The notes under the pieces: model-generated | The model's database searches: none | What the model saw: the letters and a program-made list of their open reading frames with translations, nothing else | What the model was told of the DNA's origin: nothing | Position numbers and translations under genes: made by a program | Assembly (NCBI RefSeq): GCF_016756745.1 | Contig: NZ_JAESIH010000047.1 | Span: 1-64,000, forward strand | Direction: 5' to 3' | DNA from: Aminivibrio sp. | GTDB lineage: Bacteria; Synergistota; Synergistia; Synergistales; Aminobacteriaceae | Length of the DNA stretch: 64,000 nt | In this document: positions 684 to 40,264 of the stretch, piece by piece | Layout: each line of letters starts with the position of its first letter | Numbering within the stretch: position 1 is the stretch's first letter

Positions 684-740
684 CCTAAATCCGCAGGTTT
701 TTCAGGCAGAGGGAATGTCGCCGGTGCCTGCGGATTTAGG
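684..740 (+). mobile_element. Palindromic MITE-like element, copy A (57 bp)
   Basis: The terminal inverted repeat is CCTAAATCCGCAGG at the left and CCTGCGGATTTAGG at the right, 14 bp and perfect. The inner sequence TTTTTCAGGCAGAGGGA is the left-end module shared with copies C, D, E, G and H. The direct repeat GAGGT flanks both ends (679-683 and 741-745), a perfect 5-bp target-site duplication. It lies between the divergent genes mce and the 813 gene. A weak extended -10 (TGATATAGT, 775-783) follows on the plus strand. Confidence 0.85.
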
Positions 741-3480: not shown

Positions 3481-3491
3481 CTTTTCCAGTG

Positions 3492-3522
3492 CCCCTAAAT
3501 CCGCTGCCTGCGGATTTAGGGG
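3492..3522. repeat. Minimal palindromic element, copy B (31 bp)
   Basis: CCCCTAAATCCGC (3492-3504) and GCGGATTTAGGGG (3510-3522) form a perfect 13-bp inverted repeat around a TGCCT loop. The two terminal repeats of the larger family copies are here almost back to back. It lies between two divergent promoters, 11 and 12 nt from their -35 boxes. I see no target-site duplication. Confidence 0.8.
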
Positions 3523-3534
3523 AAAACCGGGAAA

Positions 3535-3563
3535 TTGACAAATAGCCCCGGAAAGAGTATCGT
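3535..3563 (+). promoter_or_regulatory. Promoter of the thiamine-precursor transport operon
   Basis: A consensus -35 TTGACA (3535-3540) is followed after 17 nt by TATCGT (3558-3563). Transcription would begin near 3570, directly at the 5' end of the TPP riboswitch. Confidence 0.7.
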
Positions 3564-3573
3564 ACCCATGACA

Positions 3574-3666
3574 GCAACTGGGGGAGTCGGCGTGAACCGG
3601 CTGAGAGGGAGCTTTTGGGCTCCGACCCCTGGAACCTGATCCGGGTCATGCCGGCGAAGGGAAGTG
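3574..3666 (+). ncRNA. TPP (THI-box) riboswitch
   Basis: The conserved aptamer blocks are present in order: GGGGGAGTCGG, then CTGAGAGGGA (3601-3610), then GACCCCTGGAACCTGATC, then GTCATGCCGGCGAAGGGA. These form the P1-P5 helices that bind thiamine pyrophosphate. A strong terminator follows 36 nt later, immediately before the first gene, so bound TPP should stop transcription of the transport operon. Confidence 0.97.
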
Positions 3667-3701
3667 TGTGTTTTGCTGAAGCAAATGCATGAAGACTTCC
3701 G

Positions 3702-20212: not shown

Positions 20213-20576
20213 CCTAAATCCGCTAATTTTTCAGGCAGAGGGAATGTCGCCGGGCACAGCGCCCGGGCCGAGAAACCGACACGGATGTCGGTTTCAGGTG
20301 CAGTTGTCAAGGACGACAATCTGCACCCCCCGCCCAAGCGTTCCCCGGTGACACTCCCCAGGGGCGAAGAGATCTCGCTCCGCGCTCTTTGCGGAGAGGC
20401 CCCTGGGGGAGGGCGCCTGAGGTGAGAAAAACCGACACGGATGTCGGTTTCACAGGCAGGCAGCCGGCGAACGCAGGGAGCCGCGGGACTCGCTTGGGCA
20501 GTTGTCAAAGGCGACAATCTGCACCCCCCGCCCAAGCGAGTCCCGGCGACGCTCCCCGCCGGGGTGCGGATTTAGG
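20213..20576 (+). mobile_element. Palindromic MITE-like element, copy D (364 bp, composite)
   Basis: This is the largest copy, with perfect ends CCTAAATCCGC (20213-20223) and GCGGATTTAGG (20566-20576). A block containing GAAACCGACA-CGGA-TGTCGGTTTC and then GCAGTTGTC...GACAATCTGC occurs twice (near 20274-20340 and 20430-20535), so it is an internal duplication or fusion of two copies. Between them is the CTCCGC-GCTCTTT-GCGGAG hairpin nested in GGGGC/GCCCC arms. Flanks CCTAA and GCACC do not match. It lies between divergent dctP and the cupin gene. It is non-coding. Confidence 0.8.
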
Positions 20577-21593: not shown

Positions 21594-21850
21594 CCTAAAT
21601 CCGCAGGCAGCGGGGAGTGTCACCGGGGAACGCTTGGGCGGGGGGTGCAGATTGTCGTCCTTGACAACTGCCCAGGCGAGTCCCGCGGCTCCCTGCGTTC
21701 GCCGGTTGCCTGCCTGTGAAACCGACATCCGTGTCGGTTTCTCTCACCTCAGGCGCCCTCCCCAGGGGATAATCTCTTCGCCCCTGGGGAGGGCGAATTC
21801 ACCTTATGCCCGGCGACATTCCCTCTGCCTGAAAAATTAGCGGATTTAGG
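21594..21850 (-). mobile_element. Palindromic MITE-like element, copy E (257 bp)
   Basis: Ends CCTAAATCCGC (21594-21604) and GCGGATTTAGG (21840-21850) are perfect. The 5-bp sequence ATACC lies on both sides (21589-21593 and 21851-21855), a clean target-site duplication. The TTTTTCAGGCAGAGGGA module is at the right end, so it is reversed relative to copies A, C and D. Inside are GAAACCGACA/TGTCGGTTTC and an arm pair CCCCTGGGGAGGGC / GCCCTCCCCAGGGG around a short loop. It sits between divergent genes. Confidence 0.87.
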
Positions 21851-34001: not shown

Positions 34002-36455
34002 CTACCGGCGGTTTCTCCAGGCGGGGGGAGGAGGGAAAAAATCCGAGGCGCCGCTCTCGGGCCTGACCTTGAGCATGGCCGAAATGCCTTTATACAATTC
34101 CGACGTTTCCGGAGCAATCTCCCGGTTGCCGTTCAGGATCTTCGCGAACAGATTCTGCACCTCCCAGAGATTCACATCCCACTTTCTCCTTTCAAGAAAG
34201 GAGAGCAGGGCATGGAGTTCCTCGAGGACAGCCCGGTTCTCCGGCGCCTCCCCGAGCCTGGCCAGGAATTCCTCGAGACGCCGGGCGGCAGTATGACGCA
34301 GGGTCTCCAGGTCAAGGGAAATTCCCCAGGTTTCGGCATCCGTCACCCTCCGCTCCAGGAAAATAAAGTCCAGGTGAAGGCTTTCCAAGGCTTTCCGCAG
34401 GTCGTCGTTCAGCACCACCTCAGCGGCGCTCCGGAAGGCTTCCGGTGCGGGCATGGAGAGGGTCGCAAGGAAGGAAAGGACTTCAGAATAATCCCTGACC
34501 GTCTTCCGGAGCATGTCAGTAACGGCGGCCACGTCCTCGGAGATGATGAGGGTAAGGATCCTCCGCTGTTCGTCCTTGAAAAGGTGCCTGAGAGAGTAAA
34601 CATTATGACCGAAGAACTCGACCAGGGCCTGTTCGTCCCCGCCCCTCAGGGTGGCCTCTATTCTTTCCCGCACTCCGTTTCCGTCCGCCGGAGCGGTTTT
34701 CCGGGCCACCCCGCACAGGACATCCTTTCCGCCCCGGTAGAGTGCCGCCACGAAGAGATCATCCTCCTCGAAGGTGGTCTCGGACATGATCCTGAGGTAC
34801 CCGAGAGCGTACCTGTTGTTCCCGCTTTCCTTTCGCTCGACGGAACACCCGGAAATACGGTAGGAGGAAAAGGCACACAGTTCAGGGGAACAGGCTTTTT
34901 GTTCCCCCGGGACAAAAAGACAGGAAACGGCGAAATGAGCCCCTGCCCGAAGCAGGTCCGCCCGGAGGGGTTCGACGAAGATGTCGAAAATTCTCCGGCC
35001 GTCCCGGAATTCGGCGATGTTGCTTCTGGCCTCGGCAAGCTTCGTCATGAAGGGGGTTCGAAAATCCCGGGCCGGAAAAAGCCGCTCCCCCAATTCAAGG
35101 GCCCTCGCGGCGTAAGCCATCACCTGAAGAGTTTCTATACCGGAAATCTCGTCGAAGAACCAGCCGCAGCTGGTGTACATGAGCATGAGGTTTCGCTCCA
35201 TCTCCAGCAGGGAAACCGACCGGACAAGCTCTTCCCGGGACAGGGGCCGTCCCGCTTCTCCCTCGAGGAATTCCCGGACCTTGTCGCCGTCCCTTCCGGG
35301 CAGGACGGATACATACCTGTTCCTGGCCCCGTAAGGGTCAGGAAGTACCGATCTCCCCTCTTCAGAAAAAAGAGGAGAAAGCGTGTCCCGAAGGCCGTCC
35401 AGGGCTTCTCTCAGGGGTTTTCTCCACCCCTGACTCCAGCCCGCCCTGGAATGGGCGGAACAGCCGCAGTCGCTCCGCCACCGCTCGACACCGTGCACGC
35501 AGCTCCAGGAGGAGTTTTCGGCTATCCTGACCTCGTCTGTGGGGGGGTGCTTTTCCAGATATTCGCCGTAAATGGTAAGATTCACGCGATCGCTCCGTTC
35601 GAGCCTGTCGAGGCAGTAGGCGAGAGCCATGTCCCCGTACTTGTGATGGTGGCCGAAGGTCTCGCCGTCGGTGGCCACGGAGAGAAGGGGAAATTTGGCG
35701 GGAGAGGCCAGGACGGAATCCAGCAGCATGGAGGCGAAGGCACTTCCGTTCCGGAGCGTTTCACCAAAGGCCACCTGCTGGGCGATGCCGCCGTGGTAGA
35801 AAAACAGGACCATGGATTTTCCCGACGGAAGAGGGCAGCGATATGGCCGAAAGACATCCACCCGTTCTCCCGTGACGTCGATCCAGTCTTCTTTGCCCGC
35901 ATGTCTTACGGCTGCGGCCTGGCGGGGAGCGAGAATGGTGAAGGAGACGCCGTTTTCGGCCAGGACTTCCAGGGTCTCCGTATCGACGGCGGTCTCGGCG
36001 AGCCACATACCCTCGGGGTCCCTGCCGAAGCGGGCCCGGAAATCCTCCATCCCCCAGATGACCTGGGTTTCCTTGTCCCTTCTGTTTGCCAGGGGGAGGA
36101 TCATGTGGTTATACACCTGGGCGAGGGCGGGTCCGTGGCCGGAGAATCTCGCGATCCCCAGCCCGTCCGCCCGCAGAACAGCCTCGTAGATGTCGGGGCG
36201 TTTTCTCTCCATCCAGGAAAGGAGAGTCGGCCCGAAATTGAAGCTGATGCGGGAATAGTTGTTGACAATGCTCCGGATCCATCCCTCGTCATCGAGGATT
36301 CTCGCGGCCCCGTTCGGGCCGTAGCACTCCGCCGCGACCCGTTCGTTCCAGTCGTGCCATGGAGCGGCTGATTCCTGTATCTCGATCTCCCCGATCCAGG
36401 GGTTTTCCCTGGGGGGCTGGTAGAAATGACCGTGAATGCATACTGAACGGACCAT
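34002..36455 (-). CDS. Glycoside hydrolase family 57 protein with DUF3536
   Basis: This 817-residue cytoplasmic enzyme starts with VCIHGHFYQPPRENPWIGEIE, the GH57 opening that brings a His and Pro into the active site. GMWLAETAVDTETLEVLAENG (about 148-168) carries the catalytic Glu nucleophile. The C-terminal half resembles the DUF3536 extension. GH57 includes alpha-amylases, 4-alpha-glucanotransferases and branching enzymes. Its place opposite malQ-glgP-glgA-glgC suggests glycogen turnover or branching; no separate glgB or glgX is in the window. It is divergent from malQ across repeat copy G. Confidence 0.85.
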   Translation of the reverse strand: MVRSVCIHGHFYQPPRENPWIGEIEIQESAAPWHDWNERVAAECYGPNGAARILDDEGWIRSIVNNYSRISFNFGPTLLSWMERKRPDIYEAVLRADGLGIARFSGHGPALAQVYNHMILPLANRRDKETQVIWGMEDFRARFGRDPEGMWLAETAVDTETLEVLAENGVSFTILAPRQAAAVRHAGKEDWIDVTGERVDVFRPYRCPLPSGKSMVLFFYHGGIAQQVAFGETLRNGSAFASMLLDSVLASPAKFPLLSVATDGETFGHHHKYGDMALAYCLDRLERSDRVNLTIYGEYLEKHPPTDEVRIAENSSWSCVHGVERWRSDCGCSAHSRAGWSQGWRKPLREALDGLRDTLSPLFSEEGRSVLPDPYGARNRYVSVLPGRDGDKVREFLEGEAGRPLSREELVRSVSLLEMERNLMLMYTSCGWFFDEISGIETLQVMAYAARALELGERLFPARDFRTPFMTKLAEARSNIAEFRDGRRIFDIFVEPLRADLLRAGAHFAVSCLFVPGEQKACSPELCAFSSYRISGCSVERKESGNNRYALGYLRIMSETTFEEDDLFVAALYRGGKDVLCGVARKTAPADGNGVRERIEATLRGGDEQALVEFFGHNVYSLRHLFKDEQRRILTLIISEDVAAVTDMLRKTVRDYSEVLSFLATLSMPAPEAFRSAAEVVLNDDLRKALESLHLDFIFLERRVTDAETWGISLDLETLRHTAARRLEEFLARLGEAPENRAVLEELHALLSFLERRKWDVNLWEVQNLFAKILNGNREIAPETSELYKGISAMLKVRPESGASDFFPPPPAWRNRR

Positions 36456-36502
36456 CGGGATACTCCCTTCCCATTACATTTTTGTCAATTATATATCATG
36501 AC

Positions 36503-36666
36503 CCTAAATCCGCAGGCAGCGGGAGTGTCACCGGTGCTCGCTTGGGCCGCCGGTGCAGATTGTCGTCCTTGACAACTGCACCTGAAACCGACATCCGTGT
36601 CGGTTTCTCGGCCCGGGCGCTGTGCCCGGCGACACTCCCTCTGCCTGAAAAATTTGCGGATTTAGG
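36503..36666 (-). mobile_element. Palindromic MITE-like element, copy G (164 bp)
   Basis: Perfect ends CCTAAATCCGC (36503-36513) and GCGGATTTAGG (36656-36666) are flanked by ATGAC on both sides (36498-36502 and 36667-36671). It holds two clean inner hairpins: GAAACCGACA-TCCG-TGTCGGTTTC and GGTGCAGATTGTC...GACAACTGCACC. It matches the left part of copy D and may be the simplest complete form. It sits between divergent GH57 and malQ genes. A TATAAT for the GH57 gene (36488-36493) is close to its left end. Confidence 0.87.
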
Positions 36667-36753
36667 ATGACTCTGTCCCGGAAGGCGGAGATGGGCCGTC
36701 TTCCTGGTGTAGAATGGCACTGAGAGCGACAAACCGACTACGGAGGTGTTTTT

Positions 36754-38241
36754 TTGAACAGAGCATGCGGCATCCTTCTCCCCGTCCCGTCCCTTCCCGG
36801 AGGGTACGGATCGGGAGACCTGGGAAAGCCGGCCCATGATTTCGTTGACTTTCTTTCCCGTTCCGGGCAGGCCATCTGGCAGGTCCTCCCTCTCACCGTG
36901 ACGGACGGCGCCCTCGGCAATTCGCCGTACAGCTCCCCGTCGGCCTTCGCGGGCAATCCCCTGTGCATTTCCCCGGATGATCTTGTCGCGGGGGGGTTGC
37001 TCCTCAGGGACGAACTTTCCGGTCATCCCGCCTTTCCTGAGGACCAGGTAGACTACGGCCCGGCGAGGGAGTTCAAGGAGGGCATCCTGCGGCTCGCCTT
37101 TTCCCGTTTTTCCCCGGGGGAAGAATACCGGGTCTTCCTCAGGGAACAGGAGTACTGGCTCGAAGACTACGTCCTGTTCACCGCCCTCAAGGGACTCTAC
37201 AAGGGCGCTCTCTGGAACGGCTGGCCGGAGAAGATCCGCGCAAGGGACAAAAAAGCCCTGCGGGAAGTCTCCGGTGATCTCCGGTGCGAGCTGGACTATC
37301 TCCGGTTCACCCAGTACATTTTTTTCTCCCAGATGAAGAGCCTCCGGGAAAAATGCCGGGAAGCGGGAGTGGAACTCATCGGCGACCTTCCCATCTATGT
37401 GAACTACGACAGCGCCGACGTTTGGTCCCATCAGTCCTTTTTTTGCCTTGACGGGGAGCTTCTGCCCACCGAGGTGGCAGGGGTGCCCCCCGACTATTTC
37501 AGCGAAACGGGGCAGCTCTGGGGAAACCCCCTTTACAACTGGAACGCACTGAAAAAGAACGGTTTCTCCTGGTGGATCCGGAGACTTCGCCATTCCCTCT
37601 CCCTGTTCGATATGGTAAGAATCGACCATTTCAGGGGGCTCCTCGCCTATTGGGCCGTTCCTTTCGGGGACAGGACCGCCGAGAGAGGGACATGGAGGCC
37701 GGTCCCATCGGAGGATTTTTTCAGCACCGTCAGGAAGGAACTCCCCTCCCTGCCCTTCCTGGCGGAAAACCTGGGGGTGATCACCCCCGACGTCACGGAA
37801 GCCATGGAGTCCATGGGATTTCCCGGCATGGCGGTGGTTCTTTTCGCCTTCGGCGGCGGAATGAGGGACAATCCCCATATCCCTCACAACTACCGGCGGA
37901 AACTGGCCGCCTATACGGGAACTCACGACAACAACACCATCGAAGGATGGTATTCCGAAGACGCCTCCGAGAACGAACGGCGGACATTCCTGGAGTACAC
38001 CGGCCGTTCCGCCGACGGTGTAAGCGCCGCGGACACGGTCATCCGGCTCGTCCTTTCATCGGTGGCGGAGCGGGCAGTGGTACCGCTCCAGGACTATCTG
38101 GGGCTGGGCTCGGAGGGAAGAATGAACACACCTTCGGTTCCCTCGGGGAACTGGGAATGGAAGGCCCGCCAGGAACACCTCTCCGTGGGGCTCTCCCAAA
38201 GGATGGCGAACCTTGCGGGCATCTACGGAAGAAAATCCTGA
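36754..38241 (+). CDS. malQ: 4-alpha-glucanotransferase (amylomaltase, GH77)
   Basis: This 495-residue GH77 enzyme transfers maltodextrin segments. RACGILLPVPSLPGGYGSGDLG and IWQVLPLTVTDGALGNSPYSSPSAFAGNP are the N-terminal signature. MVRIDHFRG supplies the nucleophile Asp, FLAENLGVITPDV the acid/base Glu and TGTHDNNTIEGW the transition-state Asp. The start is TTG at 36754 with GGAGGTG upstream and no better ATG. Its stop TGA lies inside the left terminus of repeat copy H; without the insertion the gene would end one codon earlier at TAG. Confidence 0.95.
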   Translation: MNRACGILLPVPSLPGGYGSGDLGKPAHDFVDFLSRSGQAIWQVLPLTVTDGALGNSPYSSPSAFAGNPLCISPDDLVAGGLLLRDELSGHPAFPEDQVDYGPAREFKEGILRLAFSRFSPGEEYRVFLREQEYWLEDYVLFTALKGLYKGALWNGWPEKIRARDKKALREVSGDLRCELDYLRFTQYIFFSQMKSLREKCREAGVELIGDLPIYVNYDSADVWSHQSFFCLDGELLPTEVAGVPPDYFSETGQLWGNPLYNWNALKKNGFSWWIRRLRHSLSLFDMVRIDHFRGLLAYWAVPFGDRTAERGTWRPVPSEDFFSTVRKELPSLPFLAENLGVITPDVTEAMESMGFPGMAVVLFAFGGGMRDNPHIPHNYRRKLAAYTGTHDNNTIEGWYSEDASENERRTFLEYTGRSADGVSAADTVIRLVLSSVAERAVVPLQDYLGLGSEGRMNTPSVPSGNWEWKARQEHLSVGLSQRMANLAGIYGRKS

Positions 38242-38446
38242 ATCCGCACCCCAGCGAGGAGCGTCACCGGAGACCACTTGGGCGGAAAGTGCGGATTGTC
38301 GTTCGTGGCAACTGCCCGGGCGAGTCCCGCGGCTCCCTGCCTTCGCCGGCTGCCTGCCTGTGAAACCGACATCCGTGTCGTTTTCTCTTCCCTCAGGTGC
38401 CCTCCCCGGCGACACTCCCTCTGCCTGAAGAATTTGCGGATTTAGG
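38237..38446 (-). mobile_element. Palindromic MITE-like element, copy H (210 bp), at the malQ stop
   Basis: The left end CCTGAATCCGC (38237-38247) and right end GCGGATTTAGG (38436-38446) differ by one transition, which would be a G-U pair in RNA. AAAAT lies on both sides (38232-38236 and 38447-38451), a perfect target-site duplication. The TCAGGCAGAGGGAGTGTCGCCGG module is at the right end. Removing the element and one AAAAT restores AAA-TAG, an in-frame stop for malQ. Confidence 0.87.
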
Positions 38447-38527
38447 AAAATAGAGTCCCTTCTCTTCAAGAAGAGGAGACTTTCTGGTAATATTGAAACA
38501 GTAAAGAGAGGGGGAATCATTCTCATC

Positions 38528-40264
38528 ATGACATCCATGCACCAGAGAGAACTGGGCAGCTCCATACGAAAACTTGTGGAAAACGACCCCGCCTTCCGGC
38601 CGGTGGCCTATCTTTCCATGGAAATAGGAATAAAAGAGTCTCTTCCCACCTACTCGGGAGGCCTGGGCATCCTGGCGGGCGACATCCTGAAGAGCGCGGC
38701 GGACCTTGGTGTCCCCATGGTAGGACTCACACTTCTCTACCGTAAAGGATATTTCGAGCAGTCCTTCAACGCCGACGGATGGCAGACGGAAAAACCGGTG
38801 CTCTGGCAGCCGGCCCAGGAACTGACCCTTCTTCCGAACCAGGTCTCCCTGACCCTTCAGAACCGGGAAGTTTACGTGCGGGTGTGGCGGTACGAGATCA
38901 TCGGAGGCGGCGGCTACCCTCTTCCGGTCTACTTCCTGGACACGGACTTCGACAACAATCACCCCGACGACCGCAAGCTTACCTGGTACCTTTACGGCGG
39001 AGACCAGCTCTACCGGCTCTGCCAGGAGATGGTCCTGGGGGTGGGTGGCCTGCGGATGCTCCGGGACCTGGGCTACAAGAACATCGAAACCTTCCACATG
39101 AACGAGGGGCATGCGGGGTTCCTCACCCTGGAGCTCATGAGGGAGCAGGGGTACTACGACCCCGAGAAGATCCGGGAGCAGGTGATCTTCACCACCCATA
39201 CCCCCGTTCCGGCAGGACACGATTTCTTCCGCTTCGACCTGGTGGACAGGGTCATCTCCCAGGAGGCACTCTCCAACCTGAAGAGAATGCTCCCCAACGC
39301 CGACGGTGTTTCCATGACCGAACTGGGCATCCGCTTCAGTCGGTACGTGAACGCCGTATCTAAAAAACATGCCGAAGTCAGCCGGAAAATGTTCAACATG
39401 CCGGAGATCGACTGGGTGACCAACGGTGTCCACCCCAGGACGTGGGTCAGCAGCGGTATTCAACGGCTTTTCAATACCTATATCCCAGGATGGGAACACG
39501 ATCCCGGAAGGCTCGTCCAGGCGGTGAAGATGCCTCCCGAGGAGATCTGGAACGCCCACCAGGCATCCAAGATGCGCCTCCTGGCAGGGGTCATGGAGCA
39601 GACCGGCCGCCAGCTCGAACCCGACGTCCTCACCATCGGCTTTGCCCGGAGGGCGGCTCAGTACAAGAGGGCCGACCTGGTGCTGTCGAACATCAAACGG
39701 CTCATGGAAGTGGGGGCGGGAAAGATCCAGTTTGTCTTCGCCGGCAAGGCCCACCCCAGGGACGACGGAGGAAAGGCCGTTCTCCAGAGACTTCTCACCG
39801 CGTCCCAGAAGGTGGACGAAATGATTCCCATTGTCTTCCTCGAAAACTACGACATGGATAAGGGAGCCCTCATAACCCAGGGAGTGGACCTGTGGCTGAA
39901 CACACCCATCCGCCCGAGAGAGGCCTCGGGAACAAGCGGAATGAAGTGCGCCCTGAACGGCGTGATGAACTTCTCGGTCCTCGACGGCTGGTGGATCGAA
40001 GGGTGGCTGGAGGACGTGACGGGCTGGTCCGTGGGTCCCGAACCCAGCGAGTCCGACATGATGCACTACGACGAATCTCTCGATGCCATCGACCTCTACG
40101 ACAAGCTGGAGAAGAAAATAATACCCACCTACTACAACAACCGGGAAAAGTGGATCTGGATGATGCAGCGGACCATAGCCCTCAACGGCAGCTTTTTCAA
40201 TACACACAGGGTGGTACGGGAGTACTGCGAAAAGGCATACAACATCACTTTCCGGGGGATGTGA
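38528..40264 (+). CDS. glgP: Alpha-glucan phosphorylase (GT35, short type)
   Basis: This 578-residue enzyme releases glucose 1-phosphate from glycogen. It is shorter than the muscle-type enzyme, as in the TIGR02094 class. PVAYLSMEIGIKESLPTYSGGLGILAGD is the family start. HMNEGHAGFLTLEL and FTTHTPVPAGHD follow. The pyridoxal phosphate lysine lies in EASGTSGMKCALNGV near residue 475. GAGGGGG lies 14 nt before the ATG; a second in-frame ATG three codons later is also possible. It is followed by glgA after 5 nt. Confidence 0.93.
   Translation: MTSMHQRELGSSIRKLVENDPAFRPVAYLSMEIGIKESLPTYSGGLGILAGDILKSAADLGVPMVGLTLLYRKGYFEQSFNADGWQTEKPVLWQPAQELTLLPNQVSLTLQNREVYVRVWRYEIIGGGGYPLPVYFLDTDFDNNHPDDRKLTWYLYGGDQLYRLCQEMVLGVGGLRMLRDLGYKNIETFHMNEGHAGFLTLELMREQGYYDPEKIREQVIFTTHTPVPAGHDFFRFDLVDRVISQEALSNLKRMLPNADGVSMTELGIRFSRYVNAVSKKHAEVSRKMFNMPEIDWVTNGVHPRTWVSSGIQRLFNTYIPGWEHDPGRLVQAVKMPPEEIWNAHQASKMRLLAGVMEQTGRQLEPDVLTIGFARRAAQYKRADLVLSNIKRLMEVGAGKIQFVFAGKAHPRDDGGKAVLQRLLTASQKVDEMIPIVFLENYDMDKGALITQGVDLWLNTPIRPREASGTSGMKCALNGVMNFSVLDGWWIEGWLEDVTGWSVGPEPSESDMMHYDESLDAIDLYDKLEKKIIPTYYNNREKWIWMMQRTIALNGSFFNTHRVVREYCEKAYNITFRGM

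Follow-up and report, generated by a model that had tools for sequence, protein, structure and literature searches.

A MITE insertion within the malQ stop codon that provides the replacement stop from its own end

An element in the malQ stop codon

A mobile element lies inside the stop codon of the malQ gene of this Aminivibrio genome, and the element's own end is the replacement stop. The gene was analysed within a window, the whole stretch of 64,000 nucleotides considered here. Read directly, its present 3′ end consists of AAA (38233-38235), TCC (38236-38238) and TGA (38239-38241), the last two codons being composed of the T of an AAAAT duplication followed by the CCTGA with which the element begins. 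When the flanks are rejoined with a single AAAAT, the reading becomes AGA AAA TAG. The features of the locus are as follows.

36754..38241, plus strand: malQ, 4-alpha-glucanotransferase, 495 aa (translation; NCBIfam TIGR00217 and NF011080)
38232..38236, plus strand: target-site duplication AAAAT, left copy (sequence; detected together with the element)
38236..38241, plus strand: TCC (Ser) as the present last codon, followed by the new stop TGA (empty site in relatives)
38237..38446, no strand assigned: MITE copy, 210 bp, start CCTGAATCCGC, end GCGGATTTAGG (sequence, paired termini)
38447..38451, plus strand: target-site duplication AAAAT, right copy (sequence)
38452..38453, plus strand: AG, stranded rest of the ancestral TAG stop (empty site AAA TAG at locus L005)
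38528..40264, plus strand: downstream gene, glucan-phosphorylase-like by eye (ORF list; synteny with genome G001)

The region upstream of the gene at 38528..40264 is intact beyond the element. Folding of the malQ copy gave z = -5.49. The AAAAT duplications are not a matter of chance, since 79 of the 91 copies of the family that are bounded by target-site duplications (TSDs) have a perfect 5-bp duplication.

Empty sites in relatives and a second identical event

The 3′ ends of malQ were read at 31 loci, the gene's own copy counted in. In the closest relative (G001, same genus, 90% amino acid identity, locus L005) the gene ends GGA AGA AAA TAG and is followed by homologous downstream DNA. Three further element-free ends were read as AAG TAG in a Synergistaceae MAG (L034, 85%), AAC TAG at L009 (60%) and AGG TAA at L006 (67%). 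The two 150-nt malQ flanks, joined with one AAAAT kept, align with G001 over all 300 nt at 89%. The element-free relatives and this end-to-end alignment thus identify the insertion as the derived state and TAG as the ancestral stop, and show that MalQ has gained a single Ser. Each of these points had been put forward in a first-pass annotation of the sequence: that the element split the stop codon, that its end supplied the new one and that one Ser was added. The annotation had proposed comparing malQ 3′ ends of relatives without the element, and this comparison bears it out, the in-frame TAG being present in the closest relative, directly after AAA.

In the opposite history, the element and the Ser-TGA end would have been present in the ancestor, and relatives would have lost the element precisely. 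Nothing was found in support of this scenario. It would need repeated precise loss of the element together with one duplication, given the element-free homologous stops at L005, L034, L009 and L006, and the perfect AAAAT duplication at malQ fits a recent gain. We regard precise loss as extremely improbable and take the malQ insertion as a gain.

The same event is found in an amidohydrolase gene (L108), which now ends TTC GAA TCC TAA. Its relatives end TTC GAG TAA or GAA TAA in G001, G002 and G003, and GAG TAG in G004. The anticipated TAA, which the consensus end of the element was expected to give in the malQ frame, is thus realised at L108.

The element belongs to a MITE family

In the genome of the window (G000), exact CCTRAATCCGC termini number 160 + 152, against 4 + 11 for the reversed control. 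Copies were collected from 1.67 of the 2.94 Mb of G000, including the window and many stretches picked for known copies, and from 237 kb of G001 and 133 kb of G002, both mostly around known copies. Copies were accepted when their termini formed a pair and the 5-bp duplication contained no more than one mismatch, which gave 91 TSD-bounded copies (66 in G000, 16 in G001 and 9 in G002). They measure 50-284 bp across the three genomes, with clusters near 50, 165, 210, 256 and 280 bp. Short length, terminal inverted repeats, target-site duplication, lack of a transposase gene and high copy number identify them as MITEs. Insertion polymorphism is seen as well: the malQ site and that of the copy at 36503-36666 are empty in G001, and so are the gene ends of L108, L087 and L125 in relatives. 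The element was found in three of the 40 genomes searched, its own counted (G000, G001 and G002), all of one genus. Other copies in the window include the following.

684..740, no strand assigned: minimal family copy, 57 bp, TSD GAGGT (paired termini)
21594..21850, minus strand: family copy, 257 bp, TSD ATACC (paired termini)
36503..36666, minus strand: neighbouring family copy, 164 bp, TSD ATGAC, with a match to Rfam TwoAYGGAY (site empty in G001)

No homologous flank for the copies at 684 and 21594 was found in the G001 contig. Elsewhere in the window (20213-20576), family copies lie nested or in tandem, side by side on the minus strand.

Of the 182 family ends, 162 begin CC-TRA, so that a TAA or TGA codon occupies positions 3-5. 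Conservation over the first eleven positions is lowest at 3 and 4 (167 of the 182 ends at each).

One arrangement was considered and rejected as an autonomous insertion sequence (IS): C41:303-2181 of G000 holds a copy and a partial copy around a DedA-like gene, and no transposase was seen. In this unit (about 302-2181, L048), where two family copies, one of them truncated, surround what by eye is a DedA-like membrane-protein gene, the layout resembles a MITE-bounded composite; a matching duplication was looked for and none was found.

A candidate IS1380-type partner

A candidate autonomous IS lies on contig C76 of G000. It is 1912 bp long, has the ends CCTAAATCCAC and CCCAAATCCGC, is flanked on both sides by the duplication CGGTC and encodes a 533-aa DDE transposase. 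This protein scores 67.8 bits against Pfam PF13701 (DDE_Tnp_1_4; cut-off 34.7) and 174.1 bits against NCBIfam NF033539 (IS1380; cut-off 180). The ends and 5-bp TSD of the MITE match those of this IS with its IS1380-type transposase, as expected of an IS1380 derivative. In G002, G003, G004 and G020, related transposase genes or fragments adjoin termini CCTAAATCCGCACC or CCTAAATCCGCAGG or close variants, and the inner variants CCTAAATCCGCACC and CCTAAATCCGCAGG are also common in MITE ends. In G036, both ends of a more distant IS-like locus read CCTGGATCC, which lacks the stop. ISEcp1 is an IS1380-family element, and IS1380-family ends were taken from its published description because a tblastn search of plasmids with the transposase gave a single weak, partial hit.

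Two observations concern the surroundings of the IS. On C76 of G000 (L061, 3241-3275) a MITE terminus starts directly after the right CGGTC duplication, so that IS and MITE end adjoin. Nine contigs of G001 (C1, C2, C12, C19, C40, C6, C16, C20 and C23) look like an IS end over their first 108-176 bases, with a terminus at base 108-118 or 166-176. This suggests several copies of the IS in G001, at which the assembly is broken.

Gene-end insertions fall mostly in one reading phase

Genes were called on the pre-insertion sequence, with the flanks joined, by a purpose-built caller based on codon usage, and overlaps with the 91 copies were then scored. Eleven copies overlap a called gene and eight of these alter or form a gene end. 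L045 and L206 were left out of the gene-end count, their stop being complete before the element. L082 (interior, phase 1) was dropped as a gene-end case: the joined frame runs into what by eye is a LysR-like start, and perhaps two genes are involved. The eight cases are listed below.

malQ: +Ser, phase 1
L108, amidohydrolase: +Ser, phase 1; ancestral C-terminus confirmed by relatives
L087, helicase: 656 to 647 aa, phase 1; ancestral C-terminus confirmed by relatives
L125: 223 to 216 aa, phase 1; ancestral C-terminus confirmed by relatives
L114, GIY-YIG gene (G000, 1628-1909): 90 to 79 aa, phase 1
L201, orthologous GIY-YIG gene (G002, 3521-3685): 88 to 78 aa, phase 1; duplication differs from that of L114
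L168, GGDEF gene (G001): phase 1; composite case adjoining an IS end where the contig stops, ancestral end uncertain
L121, radical-SAM gene: 329 to 388 aa, phase 2; the relatives' tail differs and the exact ancestral end is less certain

Phase 1, in which one base of a codon remains before the element, thus accounts for seven of the eight TSD-bounded gene-end insertions, a small sample, where one third would be expected (P = 0.0026). The share is six of seven without the composite L168 (P = 0.0069) and five of six when L201, which hit the same gene as L114, is also left out (P = 0.018). The GIY-YIG pair shows the orthologous gene hit in two species about 3 bases apart and in the same phase; apparently these are two independent insertions at one gene end. 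When genes were counted on the present sequence and no duplication was required, the sampled stretches gave 12 genes that read into one of their 290 exact termini, and 11 of the 12 do so in phase 1 (P = 4.7e-5); without the doubtful gene L117 (49 aa) the count is 10 of 11 (P = 1.3e-4). The caller itself treats the phases alike: among 900 simulated insertions it recovered 293/293 in phase 1, 280/292 in phase 0 and 314/315 in phase 2.

The phases differ sharply in outcome. Entry in phase 1 meets a stop within 3 codons at 162 of the 182 ends, against one of 182 in each of phases 0 and 2, where the median read-in is 41 and 45 codons, respectively. The single phase-2 case, L121, has persisted with a protein 59 residues longer. 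In four of the eight cases the protein is 7-11 residues shorter.

Copies avoid genes: 8 of the 66 G000 copies touch one, as opposed to about 84% of random positions. Of 58 intergenic copies, 17 lie within 50 bp of a gene 3′ end (14.6% expected, P = 0.003) and six within 50 bp of a gene 5′ end (17.6% expected, P = 0.10).

Proposed explanation: a by-product of the element's ends, filtered by selection

We propose that a non-autonomous IS1380-type MITE, presumably mobilised by a transposase acting in trans, inserted at the 5-bp staggered target AAAAT. The cut would have fallen after the first base of the malQ TAG, stranding the old AG past the second AAAAT. Because the copy begins CC-TRA, the interrupted codon would be completed as T+CC, a Ser codon, and be followed at once by TGA. 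In general, an insertion leaving one codon base would terminate one codon later, and in the other two phases translation would usually read on for tens of codons. Selection would then have removed gene-end insertions in those phases, acting against long aberrant C-termini. The stop would be a by-product of a terminal sequence that the transposase probably needs, not something evolved for gene ends. Taken as a whole, from IS1380-type insertion and an element-supplied stop to a phase-1 excess left by selection and an incidental stop, this account appears very likely to us, and a selection filter is most likely the best explanation of the phase-1 excess.

Two other explanations bear on parts of it. 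The terminal TRA could be an adaptation, evolved to make gene-end insertions less harmful, in line with the TAA or TGA carried by most ends and with the ends of ISEcp1, CCTAGATTC and CCTAAATTC, which in the available text of PMC7864471 contain a stop in the same phase. Yet the protection is limited to a single phase, and 21.5% of shuffled termini and 37% of random 11-mers contain a stop in one phase or another. The IS-like locus of G036 does without the stop at both of its ends. Conservation within the terminus is lowest at the positions that form the stop, and we therefore see no sign that the terminus evolved to stop genes at their ends. An adaptive origin is therefore unlikely in our judgement. 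Alternatively, the phase-1 excess might come from the target-site choice of the transposase and not from selection. The A+T content of the duplications is somewhat raised (0.56, as opposed to 0.42 for the first 0.8 Mb of the sample), and target choice is therefore not fully random. However, weighting gene-end positions by the observed composition of the duplications yields null shares of 0.334, 0.313 and 0.353 for phases 0, 1 and 2, which puts phase 1 slightly under one third; target choice is thus a quite improbable source of the excess, and we retain selection as its explanation.

These results also delimit a broader idea of the first-pass annotation, that built-in stops make insertion at gene ends nearly harmless. 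That the stops soften such insertions holds in so far as seven of eight and 11 of 12 genes use the terminal TRA, but the effect works in one phase of three. Near-harmlessness as worded is not supported, considering the four shortened proteins and the 59 residues added in phase 2. The notion of a designed stop finds no support: among the first 11 terminal bases, variation is greatest at the first two positions of the stop codon, and CCTGGATCC has no stop.

CsrA-type hairpins in the family

A separate feature of the family is a pair of hairpins. Among the 91 TSD-bounded copies, 62 have two ANGGAY hexaloop hairpins with stems of at least 3 pairs and 14 have one; most copies longer than about 150 bp carry two such hexaloops, on 9-bp and 6-bp stems. 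An ANGGAX hexaloop placed directly on a stem is the high-affinity consensus for CsrA/RsmE according to the available text of PMC4005645, and the family hairpins agree with this hexaloop consensus by sequence. Counting hairpins of this type with 6-bp stems gave 150 within family cores and 73 in the rest of the 1.67-Mb G000 sample; four control loops gave 0-6 in family cores. None of 5000 shuffles of the family consensus had two such hairpins. In hairpin 1 (130 copies, three species) the loop N is C in 82, A in 21, T in 18 and G in 9, and each of the other 23 positions has its majority base in at least 119 of the 130 copies.

Five copies in three genomes, one in the window and four in G001 and G002, reach the gathering threshold (43 bits) of the Rfam family TwoAYGGAY (RF01731), with the following scores.

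Window 36508-36652: 46.9
L215: 45.2
L207: 45.0
L175: 43.5
L166: 43.1

L071 remained under threshold at 40.9, as did most scanned copies. The matches arise because family copies hold a pair of ANGGAY hexaloop hairpins. The malQ copy itself gave no TwoAYGGAY match, whether window 36400-38700 was scanned at gathering or L001 up to E = 1. The two loops of the malQ copy are as follows.

38371..38376, minus strand: hairpin 1 loop, ACGGAT (one stem mismatch)
38301..38306, minus strand: loop 2, ACGAAC, GGA lost (a variant common to 19 of 125 loop-2 copies)

Since this copy has lost loop 2 and lies antisense, the hairpins do not explain the malQ event.

G000, G001 and G002 each have a CsrA gene, as do G005 and G024, both without the element; none was found in G003 and G004, where the element search was empty too. 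Covariation was uninformative, the copies being about 95% identical, with 0 pairs changing on both sides and shuffles doing equally well. By gene side, the hairpins are sense in 28 and antisense in 6 cases at 3′ sides, and sense in 33 and antisense in 15 at 5′ sides; with each tandem site counted once the sense bias is modest (45 vs 26, p = 0.03). Copies spanning a gene end show no sense bias (3 sense, 5 antisense).

The family may tentatively be viewed as a transposon-borne carrier of putative CsrA-binding RNA hairpins scattered by IS1380-type transposition, a possibility that we put forward with some doubt. The lack of covariation, the weak preference for the sense strand and the many scanned copies under the TwoAYGGAY threshold speak against it. 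A variable N within an otherwise near-fixed hairpin is the pattern that might be expected if CsrA binding is what is kept, but it may also reflect few events, since the copies are related. If the idea were correct, transposition would have scattered two thirds of the high-affinity-type CsrA sites in the sample, which would serve as a dispersed sponge or provide new mRNA targets; the built-in terminal stop would let such sites settle in gene 3′ ends, and global CsrA regulation could be rewired by a transposon carrying binding sites. Part of TwoAYGGAY would then be a mobile element, and the described RNA family would have to be reread as partly mobile. In the accessible portions of PMC4333381 the family is described as two hairpins with GGA loops, proposed to bind CsrA (the RNA family is also treated in PMC2864571); these sources, as far as available, present it as a structured RNA and not as part of a transposable element, whereas here it lies in MITE copies. 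Our search of the open-licence literature brought up no paper that stood out as describing a transposable element that binds CsrA.

Two further RNA matches were recorded. A TPP riboswitch (Rfam RF00059, 72.9 bits) occupies window 3570-3679; just upstream of it, near 3486, is a fragment whose terminus resembles those of the family. L059 has a SECIS_4 match at threshold (38.2 vs 38).

Comparison with known systems

Gene stops encoded by repeats have already been described, in the pneumococcal BOX and the Coxiella QMITE elements. In Streptococcus pneumoniae, 58 coding sequences overlap BOX, and 36 of them, glgP included, take the stop codon at their very 3′ end from the repeat, with little sign of truncation, as related in the available text of PMC3049150. 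Like the MITE family here, BOX is a short dispersed repeat that gives genes their stop; unlike our case, the BOX account, in the portion of PMC3049150 available, includes no insertion-phase analysis, split stop with an empty-site control or IS1380-type ends. QMITE1 and QMITE2 of Coxiella burnetii overlap functional annotated genes exclusively at 3′ ends, some by just 1-10 bp, and the authors suggest that the C-terminus tolerates change (PMC5896051, from extracts). According to the same extracts QMITE2 has 7-9 bp direct repeats and another sequence, and no phase bias is given, whereas the family described here has 5-bp TSDs and a measured single-phase bias. No comparable insertion-phase analysis was found in a search of the open-licence literature.

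ISEcp1, as far as the available text of PMC7864471 goes, has a 5-bp direct repeat (TCATA) and the ends quoted above, which resemble CCTRAATCCGC and place a stop in the same phase; the feature may therefore be older than the MITE family here. ISEcp1 is, in that text, a complete IS that mobilises neighbouring genes, in contrast to the short non-autonomous copies of our family, whose partner transposase scores just under the IS1380 family cut-off. MITEAba12 creates a premature stop in one gene (PMC6382973, from extracts). In ISPsp10, too, a stop codon is assembled at the junction of element and target; there, by the available part of PMC4133298, the target supplies the stop for the transposase, whereas here the element supplies it for the host gene. 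Set beside these systems, malQ offers a clean example, checked against relatives, of a stop codon replaced by a mobile element, with the same Ser-stop outcome in two genes. The loose idea that repeats are tolerated at gene ends thereby becomes a rule that can be counted, one phase out of three, and put to the test wherever IS1380-type elements occur.
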